Shown: one piece after another, positions 8,519-24,951 of the stretch
How positions within the stretch are numbered: the stretch's first letter is position 1
How the letters are laid out: each line of letters starts with the position of its first letter
Source: Treponema sp.
Lineage (GTDB): Bacteria > Spirochaetota > Spirochaetia > Treponematales > Breznakiellaceae
Assembly (NCBI GenBank): GCA_031283105.1
Contig: JAITCL010000123.1
Span: forward strand, 1 to 34,206
DNA length: 34,206 nt
Direction of reading: 5' to 3'
Notes under the pieces: model-generated
Database searches by the model: none
What the model was told of the DNA's origin: nothing
What the model saw: only the letters and a program-made list of their open reading frames with translations
Made by a program: the position numbers and the translations under genes

Positions 8519-9187
8519 CTAACCCCACAGTTCGTTCAGGGACTTGCCCCGGTTTTTTGCAATGGCTTTGGCATCCATCATCTTGCTGATGCAATCGAAA
8601 GTTGCCTTGACCACATTGTACTGGCTTGAAGCGCCAATTGACTTGGACAGCACGTCGGTAACGCCGCCGGCTTCCATTATTGCCCGTACCGGCCCGCCGG
8701 CGATAATGCCGGTTCCCGAACAAGCGGGTTTAAGCAGCACCCGCGAGGCTTTGAACAGTCCGGTTACCTCGTGGGGGATAGTGCCGTTTTTCACCGGCAG
8801 TTTCACCATTTTGCGCTTTGCCTTGTCGATACTTTTGCGGATAGCCTCGGAAACATCATTGGCCTTGCCGAAACCGTAACCCACATTGCCTTTCCGGTCG
8901 CCAATGACCGTCAGGGCCGAAAAAGAAAAGCGCCGCCCGCCCTTGACAACTTTGGCGGTACGGTTCAGCTTTACCAGTTTTTCAACAAATTCCTTGTCAG
9001 CCGGATCCCGGTCACGATCGCGTCCGCGATCCCGGCCCCTGCGGCCTCCGGCATCTCTGCCGCCCCTTCCTTCCCCAAAGGAACGCCGGGGGCTCGCAGC
9101 CTCGACTGTGGCTTCTCCGTGATCTTCCGCAACAATGCCGTCGTCGCTGTCGTCAGCTATAACTTCTTTTTCCTCTGCGTCTTCCAT
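8519..9187 (-). CDS. rpsE: 30S ribosomal protein S5 with a long N-terminal extension
   Basis: 222 residues against about 165-175 in most bacteria. Residues from about 62 on are ordinary S5: KVVKGGRRFSFSALTVIGD, GNVGYGFGKANDVSEAIRK and ACSGTGIIAGGPVRAIMEAG. The first about 60 residues are extra: an acidic block (EDAEEKEVIADDSDD) followed by an Arg/Gly/Asp block containing RGRDRGRDRDRD. S5 helps form the mRNA entry channel and affects fidelity. The start is well placed after a Shine-Dalgarno (GAGGGTAAG) that belongs to a two-hairpin spacer element. Confidence 0.95.
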   Translation of the reverse strand: MEDAEEKEVIADDSDDGIVAEDHGEATVEAASPRRSFGEGRGGRDAGGRRGRDRGRDRDRDPADKEFVEKLVKLNRTAKVVKGGRRFSFSALTVIGDRKGNVGYGFGKANDVSEAIRKSIDKAKRKMVKLPVKNGTIPHEVTGLFKASRVLLKPACSGTGIIAGGPVRAIMEAGGVTDVLSKSIGASSQYNVVKATFDCISKMMDAKAIAKNRGKSLNELWG

Positions 9188-9269
9188 TCTTACCCTCTAT
9201 CTGGTGCGGCTGTATAGCCGCACATTAAAATCGAACATGAAACGTAGTTTCATGCTACCCTCTATAATC
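9188..9269 (-). repeat. Two-hairpin intercistronic element 1 (rplR-rpsE spacer)
   Basis: In transcript order: a hairpin CATGAAAC/GTTTCATG (9236-9254) just after the rplR stop, a short linker TTCGATTTTAAT, a second perfect hairpin GTGCGGCT/AGCCGCAC (9204-9223), then a GAGGG ribosome binding site for rpsE. The same design and much of the same sequence occur at 14602-14679, and a diverged version at 10935-11010. Confidence 0.8.
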
Positions 9270-9632
9270 CTAAAACTGAATCCCGGCTTTCCGGGTTCCA
9301 TCGGCCAAAGCCTTGACCACGCCATGATACAGGTATCCGTTGCGGTCAAAGACCACGGACTTAATGTTCTTTTCTACAAGCCGCTTGCCCATTATTTCGC
9401 CAAGTTGGGCGGCGCCGGCAACCGTCGCCTTTACGTTCCGCAACTCTTTTTCCAGCGTAGAAGCGGACACCAAAGTATGACCTTTGGTGTCATCAATAAT
9501 CTGAATCGAGAGCCTGCGGTTGCTTTTCGTAACCGTCATTCGGGGCCGTTCAGTCGTGCCGGATATCTTTTTACGGATATGCACTTTTCGCTTTAGCCGT
9601 TTCCGGTCTTTTTCCAACATCTTTCGCAGCAT
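9270..9632 (-). CDS. rplR: 50S ribosomal protein L18
   Basis: 120 residues from the start chosen at 9632 ([16 protein letters not shown]), giving the normal L18 length. An in-frame extension to 9686 would run into the repeated spacer DNA. The core includes [20 protein letters not shown] and the C-terminal [21 protein letters not shown]18 binds 5S rRNA together with L5. AGGTAGGG lies 12-15 bases upstream, within the neighbouring 77-base repeat unit. Confidence 0.94.
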
Positions 9633-9640
9633 ATAACTAT

Positions 9641-9794
9641 ATTCCCTACCTATTTTAACGTGCCAATCAGCAAAGCTGAATGGCACTTGGCTTTCAGGAA
9701 ATTACTTCGCATTTCCTGTTCCCTACTCATTCTAACAAGCCAATCAGTAACACTGAATGGCACTTGGCTTTCAGGAAATTACTTCGCATTTCCT
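9641..9794. repeat. 77-base tandem duplication filling the rplF-rplR spacer
   Basis: Two head-to-tail units, 9641-9717 and 9718-9794, differ at about 9 of 77 positions, all in the first half; the last 46 bases are identical. Each unit can fold two hairpins: GGAAAT/ATTTCC, and an imperfect stem around GCCAATCAG/CTGAATGGC. Each ends, on the minus strand, with a GTAGGGAA Shine-Dalgarno-like motif. The duplication makes this the longest spacer of the S10-to-rplQ section of the array. Confidence 0.85.
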
Positions 9795-10332
9795 ACTTCA
9801 CACCCGATTTACCGACTTTCCGCCGGATTCTTTCATCCTCATACCGGATTCCTTTGCCCTTGTACGGCTCAGGCGGTCTGAGCTTGCGAATCTGGGCGGC
9901 AATTTCCCCTACCCGCTGTTTGTCAATGCCGCCTATCGTTACTTTGCCGTTGGCATCGGCAGTAATGGTAATGCCGTCGGGGATACCGACAAAAATATCG
10001 TTGGAGTATCCCAGGCTCATCACCAGCAGTTTACCCTGCACTTCAGCGCGGTAGCCAACGCCGGTGATAACCAGCGTTTTGGTAAAACCGTTGGAAACTC
10101 CCGTCACCATATTGTTCAGGAGATTCCGGTACAGGCCGTGGAAAGCCTTGGTCTGCTTTTCCTCGTTTGCCCGGCTGACAATTATTTCTTCACCCTTATC
10201 TTCAAAACTGATAACGGGGTGATACTTTTGGGTTAGTTTTCCCTTGGGGCCTTCAACGGTCATCTGCTCACCGGCAAATGTTACCTTTACCCCTTTGGGA
10301 ACCTTAACCGGTATTTTTCCGATACGCGACAT
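9793..10332 (-). CDS. rplF: 50S ribosomal protein L6
   Basis: 179 residues from [19 protein letters not shown]; the ATG at 10332 is preferred over an upstream one at 10347 because the protein then begins like other L6 sequences. It contains the duplicated L6 fold and the conserved end [21 protein letters not shown]6 lies near the factor-binding site of the large subunit. Its stop codon lies at the edge of the tandem duplication. Confidence 0.96.
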
Positions 10333-10340
10333 AGTCCTAC

Positions 10341-10739
10341 CTACCACACGGTACAGATAATTTCACCGCCGACTTTCTTCTCGGCGGCTTTTCTGCCGGT
10401 TGTTACTCCCTGAGACGTAGAAACGATCAGGGTTCCATAGCCGTTAAAAATTCGCGGCATACTTTTATAGCCCATGTATACACGGCGTCCCGGTTTTGAC
10501 ACCTTTTCAATGCCGTGAATAATCGGGGCGGTCGAATCGTCATATTTAAGGAACACCCGAATCATGTTCGAACCTTCCTGATTTGACTTCTTGAAATTCT
10601 TGATATACCCTTCAGTCTTCAAAATTTTGACGATCTCAAGTTTCAGCCTGGAGGTGGGAATATCAACCTTTTCATGTTTTGCCATTCCGGCATTCCGGAT
10701 TTTGGTCAACATATCAGCAACGGGATCAGATACGCTCAT
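10341..10739 (-). CDS. rpsH: 30S ribosomal protein S8
   Basis: 132 residues: [20 protein letters not shown] at the start and the conserved C-terminal region [20 protein letters not shown]. It binds 16S rRNA helix 21 and in several bacteria represses the spc operon. The neighbours rpsZ and rplF are 9 and 8 bases away. Confidence 0.97.
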
Positions 10740-10748
10740 CCTGTTCTC

Positions 10749-10934
10749 CTACCAACTTGATTTAGTTACGCCGGGAATAAGCCCTTCGCTTGCAAGTTTG
10801 CGAAAGCAAAGGCGGCACATCTCATATTTCCGCAGATAGCCCCTGGCCCGTCCGCAGATCCGGCAACGGTTCACTTTTCTCGTTTTATATTTTGGCGTCC
10901 GCAGCGCCTTGATGATCATTGCTTTTCTTGCCAT
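10749..10934 (-). CDS. rpsZ: 30S ribosomal protein S14, type Z (zinc form)
   Basis: 61 residues, the short zinc-binding type. The four cysteines are in [21 protein letters not shown]14 is needed late in small-subunit head assembly. The AGAGGAG ribosome binding site follows directly after a two-hairpin spacer element. Confidence 0.96.
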
Positions 10935-11010
10935 TATACTCCTCTTTTAAGCCCGCTCTGCGGGCAGTTAAATCGGAATTCCAACCTATAAGGTTTGGAA
11001 ACACCTCACG
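10935..11010 (-). repeat. Two-hairpin intercistronic element 3 (rplE-rpsZ spacer)
   Basis: In transcript order: TAGCGTGA at the rplE stop, an imperfect hairpin built on TTCCAAACC/GGTTGGAA (10979-11000), the linker TTCCGATTTAACT, a perfect hairpin GCCCGC/GCGGGC (10951-10965) and the rpsZ ribosome binding site. The linker and the design match elements 1 and 2, but the stems have different sequences. Confidence 0.65.
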
Positions 11011-11565
11011 CTATTTTCTGAAAGGCATCCCGAATTTACCGAGGAAAGCCTTTGCTTCCGCATCGGTTTTCGCCGTTGTTACAATCACCACGTTCAATCC
11101 GGCTACCTTTTCAATTTTGTCAAAGTCAATTTCAGGAAAAATAATTTGTTCCTGAATCCCCAAGGAATAATTCCCGTGCCCATCAAATGCGTTCTGGCTG
11201 ATGCCCCGGAAGTCCTTAACACGGGGAAGGGCCACATTCACCAGACGGTCAAAGAATTCGTACATCATCGCCCCGCGCAGGGTTACCATTGCGCCAATTT
11301 CCTGCCCGGCCCTGATTTTAAAGTTTGCTATACTTTTGCGGGCTTTCGTCTTGACCGCTTTCTGCCCGGTAATCTGGGTCAGGGTGGTGATTGCCTCATC
11401 AAGGAGTTTTTTGTTCTGCAATGCCTCGCCCACGCCCATGCTGACCACAATTTTGTGCAGTTTGGGTATCTGCATAACGGACTTATAGTTAAACTCTTTG
11501 AACAGTTCCGGGGCTATCTGTTCTTGGTAAATCTTTTTCAGCCGGGGCACATATTTATCAGCCAT
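11011..11565 (-). CDS. rplE: 50S ribosomal protein L5
   Basis: 184 residues starting [14 protein letters not shown]. The ATG at 11565 overlaps the rplX stop by one base (TAATG) with GGGGAGG upstream, which is better than the in-frame ATG 27 bases earlier. Core motifs: [11 protein letters not shown], then AIMGLRG-like region [15 protein letters not shown] and [10 protein letters not shown]5 binds 5S rRNA and contacts P-site tRNA. Confidence 0.96.
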
Positions 11566-11888
11566 TACAGCGCCTCCCCGCATTTTCTGCACACTCTGAT
11601 TTTACTATCACCATCAACTTTATAACCTATCCGCGTAGGCCCGCATTTTTTGCAGACTATCATCACATTGGAGCTGTGAAGCGCCGCTTCTATTTCGATA
11701 ATGCCGCCCCGGTCTTGCTGGCTCCGGCGTTTTTTCGCCTTCTTGACAATGTTCGCCCCTTCTACCACAAGACGGTCTTTGTCACGGAGAATTTTGAGAA
11801 TCTTGCCCCGCTTGCCTTTGTCTTTGCCGGCAATAATCTCGACGGTATCTTCTTTTTTGAGTTTAAACTTATGTACCGCTTCAACCAT
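11565..11888 (-). CDS. rplX: 50S ribosomal protein L24 with C-terminal zinc-ribbon cysteines
   Basis: 107 residues. The KOW motif region [17 protein letters not shown] is near the N-terminus, and [21 protein letters not shown] follows. The C-terminal 30 residues carry two CxxC pairs (CKKC and CRKC), a zinc-ribbon-like addition known in some bacterial L24 proteins. L24 starts large-subunit assembly. It is coupled to rplE by a one-base overlap. Confidence 0.95.
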
Positions 11889-11897
11889 ATATTTCTC

Positions 11898-12269
11898 CTA
11901 CAAAACCTCGGGGGCAAGGGATACAATTTTCATAAAATCGCCCTTTTCCCGCAGCTCACGGGCTACCGGCCCAAAAATCCGCTTCCCTTTGGGATTCAAC
12001 GCGGCGTCAATAATAACGCAGGCATTGTCATCAAAGCGAATATACGTGCCATCCGGGCGGCGGTATTCCTTGTGGGTACGCACTACCACTGCTTTTTCCA
12101 CCGTGCCTTTTTTAATGGCCGAAGTGGGCAGGGCTTCTTTGACCGCCACCACAATTATGTCGCCAATCCCCGCATAGCGGCGTTTGCTGCCGCCCAGAAC
12201 TTTGATGCACTGGACACGCTTGGCCCCTGAATTATCCGCCACATTCAGGAATGTTTCCACTTGTATCAT
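11898..12269 (-). CDS. rplN: 50S ribosomal protein L14
   Basis: 123 residues from [20 protein letters not shown], the usual L14 start; the ORF could extend to 12347 but that overlaps rpsQ. The motif [17 protein letters not shown] and the end [20 protein letters not shown] are typical. AAGGGGA lies upstream. L14 forms an intersubunit bridge. Confidence 0.97.
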
Positions 12270-12283
12270 TTCCGCTATTCCCC

Positions 12284-12571
12284 TTATTTGGCGCGCTCGA
12301 GGATTTCCACAAGCTTCCAGTGCTTTTCCCTGCTGAGGGGACGGCACTCGACCACACGGACCCGGTCGCCGATCTTCGCATCATTTTTCTCGTCATGGGC
12401 TTTTACCTTTTTAGCCCGTTTGACGTATTTTTTGTACAAGGGATGAAGTTTCAGCGTCTCGATGGAGACGACGATTGTCTTGTCCATCTTGTCGCTTTTA
12501 ACAATCCCGACAAATTCCTTTTTGCCGCTTTTGGCAGGGCTTTTTTTAAGTCCCAGTTCCTGTTCCGCCAT
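12284..12571 (-). CDS. rpsQ: 30S ribosomal protein S17
   Basis: 95 residues. After a Lys-rich lead, the S17 core reads [19 protein letters not shown], then [19 protein letters not shown] and [20 protein letters not shown]. It is an early binder of 16S rRNA. Two bases separate it from rpmC. Confidence 0.96.
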
Positions 12572-12573
12572 TA

Positions 12574-12789
12574 TTAAGCCTCCGCCTTTACAACTGCTTT
12601 ATCCGCGATCTCCTGCGCATGGATAAGAGTGTTGAGCCGGGCAATCTGCCGGCGCATGATGCGCTTTTGCAGGGGATTATCTACATGGCCGATAACCATT
12701 TGAAAGCGGAGTTCCATGTACTTCTTTTTCAGTTCATCCCGTTTGGCCTTGAGTTCGGGAAATGAAAGGCTCTTGAATGAATTTTTCAT
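12574..12789 (-). CDS. rpmC: 50S ribosomal protein L29
   Basis: 71 residues from [20 protein letters not shown]; the in-frame extension to 12867 overlaps rplP and is rejected. The two-helix L29 pattern is visible ([20 protein letters not shown], then [15 protein letters not shown]). L29 lies beside the exit tunnel and helps dock trigger factor and SRP. A GGAGCG site precedes the start. Confidence 0.95.
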
Positions 12790-12799
12790 CGCTCCGCTC

Positions 12800-13228
12800 C
12801 TAAGCCCCCAGTTCCATATCGGAACGGGCAACAAATTTGGTTTTAATCGGCAGTTTCGCCCCGGCAAGGGTTATTGCCTCTTCGGCAAGGCTCCGGTTAA
12901 TGCCGCCGCCCAATTCAAACATAACGGTTCCCGGTTTTACCACGGCAACCCAATACTCCGGCCCGCCCTTGCCTTTACCCATGCGGGTTTCCGCCGGTTT
13001 TTTGGAATAGGGCTTGTCGGGGAATATCCGTATCCATATCTTGCCGCCCCGCTTTATGTGGCGGTTTAAGGCAATACGAGCCGCTTCTATCTGCCGGTTG
13101 GTAATCCACATCCGGTCCATCGCAACCAAAGCAAACTCGCCAAATACCACCGTATTGCAGCGGGTGGCATTGCCGGGCATATTGCCCCGTTGTACTTTGC
13201 GGTGCTTTACACGCTTCGGACTTAACAT
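12800..13228 (-). CDS. rplP: 50S ribosomal protein L16
   Basis: 142 residues: [19 protein letters not shown], then [20 protein letters not shown] and [20 protein letters not shown]. All are signatures of L16, which organises the A-site region of 23S rRNA. It sits between rpsC and rpmC as usual. Confidence 0.97.
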
Positions 13229-13232
13229 TTAA

Positions 13233-13943
13233 CTAACCCCTACTCCCCGCCGGAACACGTTCCCGCCGCTTGCGAACCAGAACGCCCGCATCTTCCTTTT
13301 GTTCCTTGCCATACTTCATGCCGTTGTACACCCAAACCTTGACCCCGATAGAGCCAAACGTGGTGTGGGCTTCGGCAAAACCATAATCAATATCCGCCCG
13401 CAGGGTATGCAGGGGTATGCGCCCTTCCTTCGCTTCTTCGGTACGGGACATTTCCGCGCCGCCGAGCCGCCCCGAAAGCCGCACCTTAACGCCCTGAGCG
13501 CTGCCTTTTTTAATGGCGTTGGAAATGGCCTGCTTCATGGTGCGCCGGAAAGACGACCGCGCCAAAAGCTGCCGGGATATATTCTGCGCAATGATTTGGG
13601 CATTGCCATCCGCGTTCCGTATTTCCTTAATTTTTATCTGAATTTTTTTATTAACCTGCTTCTGTAACTCAGCGCCGATTTTTTCGATGTTTGCGCCCTT
13701 AACCCCGATGATAACGCCGGGGCGGGCGGTGTGAATGGTAATGGTTATCCGCTGGGGATGCCTGATAATTTCAAGTTCCGCAATGTCGGCGCCCTTGGTT
13801 TCGGGCATATCCAAAATCAGTTTGCGAAGTTTTAAATCCTCGTGCAGGGTATTGGCGTATTCTTTGGGATCAACATACCAGCGGGAACCCCAGGTTTTGT
13901 TGATGCCAATCCGCAGCCCGATTGGGTTAACTTTTTGTCCCAT
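13233..13943 (-). CDS. rpsC: 30S ribosomal protein S3
   Basis: 236 residues. [20 protein letters not shown] at the start, a KH domain with [19 protein letters not shown], and the S3 C-terminal domain with [19 protein letters not shown]. It lines the mRNA entry tunnel. Its start shares one base with the rplV stop. Confidence 0.97.
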
Positions 13944-14311
13944 TATTTATCCGCCTTTGTACGTACGGTTTCATCGACCACGACCGTTATATGACACATC
14001 CGTTTGAGCAGGGTATCAGCCTTCGCTTTACCACGGAACCAAACCCTTTTAAGGCGGGGGCCGTCATCAATAAAAATCTCCCGCACATACAGCATATCTT
14101 CATCAAGTTGCTTGTTGCCGGCAAGGGCGCAGGAAGCGGCGGACTTTACCGTCTTGCGAATAAGCCGCGCCCCCTTCTGCGGCATATTTTCCAACAGGGA
14201 AAGAGCCTCAGAGTAGGGCCGGCGGCGAACAAGGTCGGCCACGGGCCTGATTTTATAGGGCGAACCCATAAGGTACTTGCTTACCGCCCTGTAACCGGTT
14301 TTTGCTTCCAT
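13943..14311 (-). CDS. rplV: 50S ribosomal protein L22
   Basis: 122 residues. It has the pattern [20 protein letters not shown] at the N-terminus and the hairpin region [20 protein letters not shown] that lines the exit tunnel and is the site of macrolide-resistance changes in other bacteria. Nothing unusual is visible. Confidence 0.95.
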
Positions 14312-14319
14312 ATACCTAC

Positions 14320-14601
14320 CTATTTCGCGGCAGCTTTTTTGTCCGACCCCGCATGGCCCCGGAAAATCCGGGTGGGGGCGAACTCGCCCAGCTTATGACC
14401 AACAAGGTTTTCCGTGACATACACGGGAACCCAGGTTTTGCCGTTATAGACTGAAATCGTTCCGCCTACCATTTCAGGAATTATGGTGGAACACCGGGAA
14501 TAGGTTTTAACCATTTTCCGTTCCCCGGACTTATTCAATTCCAGTACTTTTTTATACAGGCTCTTTTCAATAAAAGGGCCTTTCTTTACCGACCTTGACA
14601 T
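14320..14601 (-). CDS. rpsS: 30S ribosomal protein S19
   Basis: 93 residues: [19 protein letters not shown], then [20 protein letters not shown] and [21 protein letters not shown]19 forms a complex with S13 in the head. A strong ribosome binding site (AGGAAGGAAG) lies upstream after a two-hairpin element. Confidence 0.97.
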
Positions 14602-14679
14602 ACTTCCTTCCTAACCTAACCTCTACCTGGTGCGGCTGCATAGCCGCACTTTTTATCGAACATGAAACTATGTTTCACG
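14602..14679 (-). repeat. Two-hairpin intercistronic element 2 (rplB-rpsS spacer)
   Basis: In transcript order, directly after the rplB stop: CGTGAAAC/GTTTCATG (14661-14679), the linker TTCGATAAAAA, then GTGCGGCT/AGCCGCAC (14630-14649), then CAGGTAGAGG. It is a near copy of element 1; differences fall in loops or keep pairing (one A-T becomes G-T), suggesting that structure is kept. Confidence 0.8.
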
Positions 14680-24717: not shown

Positions 24718-24951
24718 CGGCACAGGGGACAGCGCGGGGCTGCCAAAACAGATGGGGGAACCCAACTACGCAGCCCCCGCACGGCTTCCGTGCATTATTG
24801 ATAGCTATGAGTAATTCCACTATGAGCGTGTCCTCTTGTCTTCCGTGCCGTGCGGCTGTTACTGTACACTTAGTTTTTGCCTTTATTCCCTGGTCTGCTC
24901 CGTCGGAGCACCCCATAATGTTTTGGCAGCCCCGCGCTGTCCCCTGTGCCG
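24718..24951. repeat. Long nested inverted repeat
   Basis: A 33-base perfect inverted repeat (24718-24750 with 24919-24951), continuing with two mismatches to about 41 bases (to 24758 and from 24911), encloses 152 bases. Inside, CGCACGGC (24778-24785) pairs with GCCGTGCG (24846-24853), GGGGG/CCCCC and GCTCCG/CGGAGC make smaller stems, and CTTCCGTGC occurs twice directly. The whole block could fold as one long branched hairpin in RNA or single-stranded DNA. Confidence 0.8.

Follow-up and report, generated by a model that had tools for sequence, protein, structure and literature searches.

The DNA analysed here is a stretch of 34,206 nucleotides (nt), called the window below, from Treponema sp. 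of the family Breznakiellaceae; it is contig C84 of a 2.79 Mb genome in 167 contigs. The window carries an S10/spc ribosomal operon on the minus strand, in which the positions of S5, L18, L6, S14, L5, S19, and L2 were confirmed with Pfam. The subject of this report is a short two-hairpin element that occupies spacers of this operon. An original prediction had placed such elements in the rplR-rpsE (9188-9269, here E1), rplE-rpsZ (10935-11010, E2), and rplB-rpsS (14602-14679, E3) spacers, and the coordinates, the minus strand, and the flanking genes, named by Pfam, are correct. Inspection of the sequence likewise bears out a shared design of two hairpins flanking a TTCGATTTAA-type linker, with a ribosome binding site after them. 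E1, E2, and E3 all fold better than shuffled sequence, both as RNA (z of -3.2, -2.6, and -3.5, respectively) and as DNA (z of -6.0, -4.6, and -5.4). At gathering score, Rfam gives no match in the window.

Structure and spread of the element

The E1 core lies at 9204-9254 on the minus strand and consists of hairpin 1 (9236-9254), the linker TTCGATTTTAAT (9224-9235), and hairpin 2 (9204-9223). The Shine-Dalgarno AGAGGGT (9257-9263) upstream of hairpin 1 is probably the target site's own; in the sister species G016, whose site is empty, a single Shine-Dalgarno is present. At the right end, a second Shine-Dalgarno, AGAGGGTA (9191-9198), precedes the rpsE ATG (9185-9187). The E3 core lies at 14630-14679, also on the minus strand, with hairpin 1 at 14661-14679, the linker at 14650-14660, and hairpin 2 at 14630-14649. 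Its right end (14602-14629) contains TAGAGGTTA and then the rpsS Shine-Dalgarno GGAAGG, as judged by comparison with element-free relatives, whose rplB-rpsS spacers read, for example, TAG-GAAGGGAGT-ATG or, at loci L180 and L198, contain AGGTTA without hairpins. Both hairpins, the TTCGAT linker, and the right-end Shine-Dalgarno are all present in E1 and E3, which makes both members of one family. The covariance model R1, built from 59 gap-free copies, scores E1 at 77.9 bits (E 1.6e-19) and E3 at 59.1 bits (E 1.8e-14); E1 is in the training set and E3 is not.

The near-copies are thus E1 and E3 (83% identity over 46 nt and 86% over 29 nt), and not E1 and E2 as had been claimed; the different stems ascribed to E3 belong to E2, whose linker is TTCCGATTTAACT. 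The further claim was that the changes between near-copies keep pairing. A single stem base differs between E1 and E3 (A-T to G.T) and the remaining changes lie in loops and linker, so this pair alone says little on kept pairing.

The usual form of the element is a Shine-Dalgarno, x-ATGAAAC-NNN-GTTTCAT-x', TTCGAT, about six A/T-rich bases, hairpin 2, a few bases, a GAGGTTA-like word, and the start codon, with an element length of about 60-68 nt. Hairpin 1 has 7-8 base pairs and a left arm usually containing ATG, and hairpin 2 is often GTGCGGC-N4-GCCGCAC. The left flank before hairpin 1 has the consensus GGRGTTAT in 79 copies. In the same number, the right end after hairpin 2 is GAGGTTA 36 times and another listed GGTTA or GGTA form 27 times, and 16 copies show no listed form. 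A second subfamily combines ATTAACA-N5-TGTTAAT with an unchanged linker, including one copy in the own genome (contig C158), and genome G064 has a TGCGAAAC form of the element. Tandem arrays occur with periods of 62-68 nt. Terminal inverted repeats, the classical trait of miniature inverted-repeat transposable elements, are absent; the hairpin stems are unlike, and neither end is an inverted repeat of the other. A further class has the same hairpin 1 followed by TTCGATTCAATTTTTAAG-like sequence, with no hairpin 2 detected and mostly no adjacent gene start (L074, L099, L100, L102, L105, and L122; the same type is seen at L125, L137, L147, L157, L158, and L163). This class may be a different element or a shortened version.

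The family that includes E1 and E3 is dispersed. In the own genome, blastn with E1 finds seven copies including E1 and E3 (E < 0.002). A covariance-model search of this genome and other treponemes, the check put forward in the original prediction, gives nine clear own copies including E1 and E3 (R1, E < 1e-4); 11 more rows up to E 1 are mostly partial or fall opposite a known copy on the reverse strand, and two are weak. In one of the partial rows, on contig C139 (L263) of this genome, hairpin 2 and GAGGTTA stand before a start codon without hairpin 1, which looks like a remnant. Among relatives, blastn detects the element in 28 of 36 genus genomes, the own genome included, and in 1 of 23 others at E 0.005. 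R1 gives 1 to 28 matches at E up to 0.1 in each of 37 genus genomes out of 39, the weakest being G029 with a single match at 0.02; these genus counts are partly by construction, because R1 was trained on copies from these genomes, and the E-values are rough. An R1 search of 194 genomes of the order, which covered more genomes of the family than those listed, matched 46 at E up to 0.01, comprising 10 genus members, 30 from the family's other genera, and six elsewhere. Clear matches (best E < 1e-4) were found in 21 of the 30 same-family genomes, and the nine weak ones are not counted as clear. The six single matches outside the family (E 4e-4 to 7e-3) are marginal and are treated as chance. A pattern scan returned at least 116 stretches, and 77 of the 80 listed are spirochaetes; the named loci belong almost without exception to Treponema or other spirochaete assemblies, presumably from termite guts, to judge from the isolate codes. 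The three non-spirochaetes in that list (L069, L080, and L103) are treated as chance.

Filled sites, empty sites, and translation starts

An orthologous spacer can hold the element in one species and lack it in another; the element is therefore mobile. The rplB-rpsS spacer is filled in the window and at L192, is degenerate at L195, holds a remnant at L189, and measures 3-29 nt in the other 23 of 26 relatives; no target duplication beyond TAG is seen at this site. The E1 site is empty in the sister species G016. The typical empty rpsE-rpmD site is GGGGTTAA-ATG, and the filled site is GGGGTTAG-element-GAGGTTAGT-ATG. Short spacers of this type with two Shine-Dalgarnos are seen in G024 and in the own genome; they look like leftovers of lost copies and could be of native origin. 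R1 gives 10 strong matches (E < 1e-5) in eight of 29 fetched operon stretches. An automatic search proposed an 'empty' partner among the fetched loci for 43 of 103 copies, of which 14 are tandem-array self-matches, leaving 29; among these 29 pairs, L077, the partner of L094, is actually a truncated copy. The suggestion that a small mobile repeat settles in these spacers is supported by such presence and absence and by the copies across genomes. Copies at the same site are 79% identical (35 pairs) and other pairs 73% (2965 pairs), values that do not separate old from repeated insertions. In L183 (G028) and L191 (G022), the rplR-rpsE spacer, where the window holds E1, is different and longer, at 173 and 150 nt, respectively.

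Position relative to genes was assessed on 120 distinct flanked copies anchored on hairpin 1 and linker, of which the 79 with a detectable hairpin 2 were used. In 63 of the 79 copies, a frame of 60 codons or more starts within 40 nt downstream on the same strand, and 58 of these have a Shine-Dalgarno. The corresponding values are 37% and 8% at random same-strand positions, and 10 and one of 79 on the opposite strand. The larger set of 138 copies has 113 in this position, a count not used as positional evidence because selection of that set required a downstream Shine-Dalgarno.

The genes that follow the element are varied, and nothing links the copies to ribosomal genes. Downstream of the nine own copies lie rpsE, rpsS, fliE, one gene resembling a pyridine nucleotide-disulphide oxidoreductase and one resembling an RND transporter, a gene with a lipoyl domain, another whose LapA match stays below cut-off, and two small genes, one of which has VapB and DUF2281 matches, also below cut-off. 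A fliN/fliY-type gene is also preceded, and so is a phage portal gene: on the viral contig L166, a copy lies between the large terminase and portal genes. Viral contigs L171 and L175 also carry copies at this junction, and L167, L168, and L172 have the junction without the element.

Hairpin pairing and the other hairpin-bearing spacers

Among the 59 copies of the R1 training set, 97.4% of cells are paired, and in 11 of 16 pairs both partners have changed. Doubly changed cells number 99, compared with 28.5 in shuffles (0 of 500 reach this value), and pairing falls to 27-43% when partners are slid. Since selection of the 59 copies filtered on pairing and on the hairpin 1 pattern, hairpin 2 provides the cleaner covariation signal. 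Hairpin 1 shows matched changes, such as GAAGC/GCTTC and GATAC/GTATC, in the looser set of 138 copies, in which pairing was also demanded.

Change in place can be followed at the fliM-fliY junction, where Pfam confirms fliM upstream and finds a FliN C-terminal domain in the gene downstream, 'fliY' being our label for the latter. Six of 30 such loci have a copy, one has a remnant (G009), three have a possible leftover Shine-Dalgarno, and 20 have none; in 17 of these 20, the fliM stop overlaps the next start. All five copies with the ATGATAC/ATGAGAC hairpin 1 in the 138-copy set sit at this junction, so the copies there are taken as descending from one insertion. Among five of the copies at this junction, five pairs are changed on both sides, compared with 1.3 in shuffles (0 of 500), which suggests selection on hairpin pairing after insertion. 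At L302, L307, and L308 of this junction, extra short palindromes of GGCATCCATGCC type lie just upstream of the element or remnant. The notion that the left arm of hairpin 1 repeats the first bases of the gene behind it, raised by ATGAT in both at fliM-fliY and by L046, is not general in the 31 non-consensus copies with a gene and was dropped.

Other sites show decay. In G003 and G023, the copy at rplB-rpsS is degenerate or reduced and the one at rpsE-rpmD has an imperfect hairpin 2. The predicted selection on structure is supported by covariation among copies and by the matched changes at one site, with the decayed copies at other sites counting against it.

The rplE-rpsZ spacer holds E2 (10951-11000, minus strand), with hairpin 1 at 10979-11000, the linker at 10966-10978, hairpin 2 at 10951-10965, and the Shine-Dalgarno AGAGGAG (10939-10945) after it and before rpsZ. 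E2 is a probable distant member of the two-hairpin family, as its layout and linker match; its R1 score is weak (7.5 bits, E 1.3). By sequence, it is found within the genus only in the own genome and G016, and four further matches span just 17-22 nt. A hairpin pair is present at rplE-rpsZ in three of 29 relatives; one has an unrelated-looking 82-nt insert, and 25 have 8-19 nt. A fourth hairpin-bearing spacer, missed by the earlier reading, is rplF-rplR, where a 77-nt hairpin-bearing unit of unrelated sequence occurs in two tandem copies (9642-9794, minus strand). It lacks the TTCGAT linker, R1 reaches 5.3 bits (E 5.2) on the opposite strand only, and it is not a family member by sequence. A unit related to it lies at the same site in G016 only, among 26 relatives read, so that this sister species has both E2 and the tandem-like unit in common with the own genome. 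No other clear copies of E2 or of the 77-nt unit were found in the own genome. Elsewhere in the window, 24718-24750 and 24919-24951 are the arms, 168 nt apart, of a perfect 33-nt inverted repeat.

Insertion, rival explanations, and meaning

The copies show dispersal, presence and absence, a preferred orientation and position, and covariation. The explanation that we favour, and hold to be quite probable as a whole, is a non-autonomous mobile element that inserts in the gap between Shine-Dalgarno and start codon and supplies a new Shine-Dalgarno. E1 and E3 would be copies of this short element of about 60-68 nt. Insertion would take place in a single orientation beside an existing Shine-Dalgarno, on its start-codon side. 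This original Shine-Dalgarno would then face the ATG of hairpin 1, the short frame opened there would in most copies end close to the new Shine-Dalgarno, and the right end of the element, most often GAGGTTA, would become the Shine-Dalgarno of the downstream gene; with both in place, translation of the operon could continue. The hairpins would be recognised by a mobilising enzyme, the new right end could be used as a target again to give tandem arrays, and some copies may later acquire a role that retains their hairpins. A mobiliser of the single-strand HUH/Y1 transposase type, of the REP or IS200/IS605 kind, is a guess and more probably wrong than right. It is also possible, with a likelihood somewhat short of even, that the element is specialised for translation initiation, in that it targets a Shine-Dalgarno, recreates one, and offers a start codon, and that some copies are kept as structured parts of the mRNA. 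The re-created Shine-Dalgarno and own start codon would in that case let ribosomes read through, so that the insertion would be tolerated and a new landing site would arise.

Several results weigh against the favoured explanation. No mobilising enzyme was found; Y1 transposases are present in 17 of 39 genus genomes, and genomes with a Y1 match have 10.0 copies on average, counted by hand, and those without one 7.3, which is no clean split. Eight Y1 loci have no perfect hairpin before TTCGAT or TCCGAT and no transposase-linked copy, and the six REP-type genes inspected adjoin palindromes of other kinds than the element. In 92 non-tandem copies, shared words between left and right flank average 5.10 compared with 4.37 by chance (z 6.7), and 13 copies share at least 8 nt where 3.2 are expected; because these words exceed chance, the target may have been partly duplicated or converted. 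For pairing of the linker with the two ends, covariation is absent (z -0.2 and 0.0), and a constant guide would not covary. Positionally, 16 of 79 copies have no qualifying gene start, 41 of the 120 anchored copies were excluded for want of a detected hairpin 2 (some have an imperfect or longer one and others belong to a different class), and the bias could partly reflect survivorship instead of targeting. As to covariation, the 59 copies were pre-filtered for pairing and mostly found by a pattern fixing hairpin 1, and the five fliM-fliY copies are few and related, a kinship that the shuffles ignore.

The nearest rival is that the element belongs to the REP family and is mobilised by the REP-associated tyrosine transposases found in these genomes. 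REP elements are described in PMC8266576 as short palindromes that lie for the most part in spacers and are presumed to be mobilised in trans, with the single-stranded hairpin as recognition signal. Transposases over the NF047646 cut-off number two in the own genome and three in G064, hairpin 1 typically forms a 16-nt palindrome that includes a 3-nt gap, a shape described for REPSm in the same paper, and GTAG happens to precede E1. However, GTAG is not in the consensus, as the bases before hairpin 1 are GGRGTTAT; the two unlike hairpins stand in fixed order and are not a REP plus inverted REP; the palindromes beside the REP-type genes are unlike the element; and many copies lie in genomes without a found Y1 gene, though these genomes are incomplete. 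Membership in the REP family is unlikely. The REP-type genes include L294 and L296 (G064) and L298 and L299 (own genome), and L294 and L296 adjoin GGTGCCWGGCACC or GGTGACTGTCACC palindromes, possibly their own REPs.

Less likely still is a cis-acting RNA element for regulation or processing, such as a leader, an RNase site, or a translation attenuator, spread by duplication and kept for tuning the downstream gene. The strong pairing conservation, the matched fliM-fliY changes, and the usual place just before start codons agree with it, whereas the nine own downstream genes have no evident common theme, most of the relatives read lack the element at these sites, some copies are remnants or have decayed, one copy lies in a phage operon, and the window lacks an Rfam match at gathering score.

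Another possibility is that the copies are short coding sequences, leader peptides of the MKLRFMFD... type that are palindromic by accident. E1 contains a frame of 18 codons (9197-9253, minus strand) from the hairpin 1 ATG to a TAG within the next Shine-Dalgarno. The hairpin 1 start codon stands behind a Shine-Dalgarno-like word in 98 of 113 copies (random 14-mers, 16%), and of 101 copies with such a start and a downstream gene, 84 have a frame that ends in the stretch from hairpin 2 to roughly the gene start. Nevertheless, the linker measures 12 nt in 73 of 138 copies and deviates from 12 by a non-multiple of three in 61, with the script-placed hairpin 2 start accurate to a base or two; moreover, stem changes alter the encoded residues on both arms, and 12 of 113 copies lack ATG or GTG in hairpin 1. 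As the frame is often lost across the linker and stem changes alter residues, a coding peptide was rejected as the main explanation and is very improbable; the E1 frame probably does not encode a conserved peptide. Chance hairpins plus one local operon duplication, the fallback named in the original prediction, could draw on the lack of other clear copies of E2 and the 77-nt unit in the own genome, but are refuted for E1 and E3 by copies of E1 on several other contigs and R1 matches in 37 of 39 genus genomes, and have next to no probability.

Small derivatives of IS200/IS605 have a hairpin near each end, no terminal inverted repeats, and an orientation fixed by the target, and the two-hairpin element resembles them in all three. 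In contrast, it has no cargo, no identified transposase, and no detected pairing with a guide sequence of the IS200/IS605 type (described in PMC8266576), and its left and right flanks are similar beyond chance. The likeness to REP, BIME, and REPIN with RAYT lies in the short spacer palindromes and the REP-type transposase genes of the own genome; the element differs by its two unlike hairpins in fixed order and orientation, its conserved linker, the absence of a constant GTAG, its place at translation starts, and a right end that supplies a Shine-Dalgarno. ERIC and Correia elements are longer palindromic repeats with terminal inverted repeats that can be transcribed within operons; the element shares with them the palindromes and the transcribable place in operons, but not the length or the terminal inverted repeats, and we know of no described link of ERIC or Correia to the gap between Shine-Dalgarno and start codon. 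Pneumococcal BOX, RUP, and SPRITE are small structured interspersed repeats, thought to be mobile and over-represented between convergent genes, according to PMC3049150. The present element is likewise small, structured, and interspersed, whereas it lies mostly before start codons and in the direction of the gene. No description of this two-hairpin element was found in searches of one open-access library. In our reading, it joins the small interspersed palindromic repeats as a new form that has specialised in translation starts.

Bacteria usually tolerate small repeats in places where the harm is least, for example between convergent genes, as described for the pneumococcal repeats in PMC3049150. 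The two-hairpin element does the opposite and sits in essential operons, where it would cause no obvious breakage because it carries its own ribosome-binding site. If the proposed mechanism is true, the filled and empty sites across dozens of species form a natural test series of how much a translation start tolerates. It would also give the spacers of ribosomal and flagellar operons a route to gain structured RNA, and would be an entry point to a new transposition target rule.

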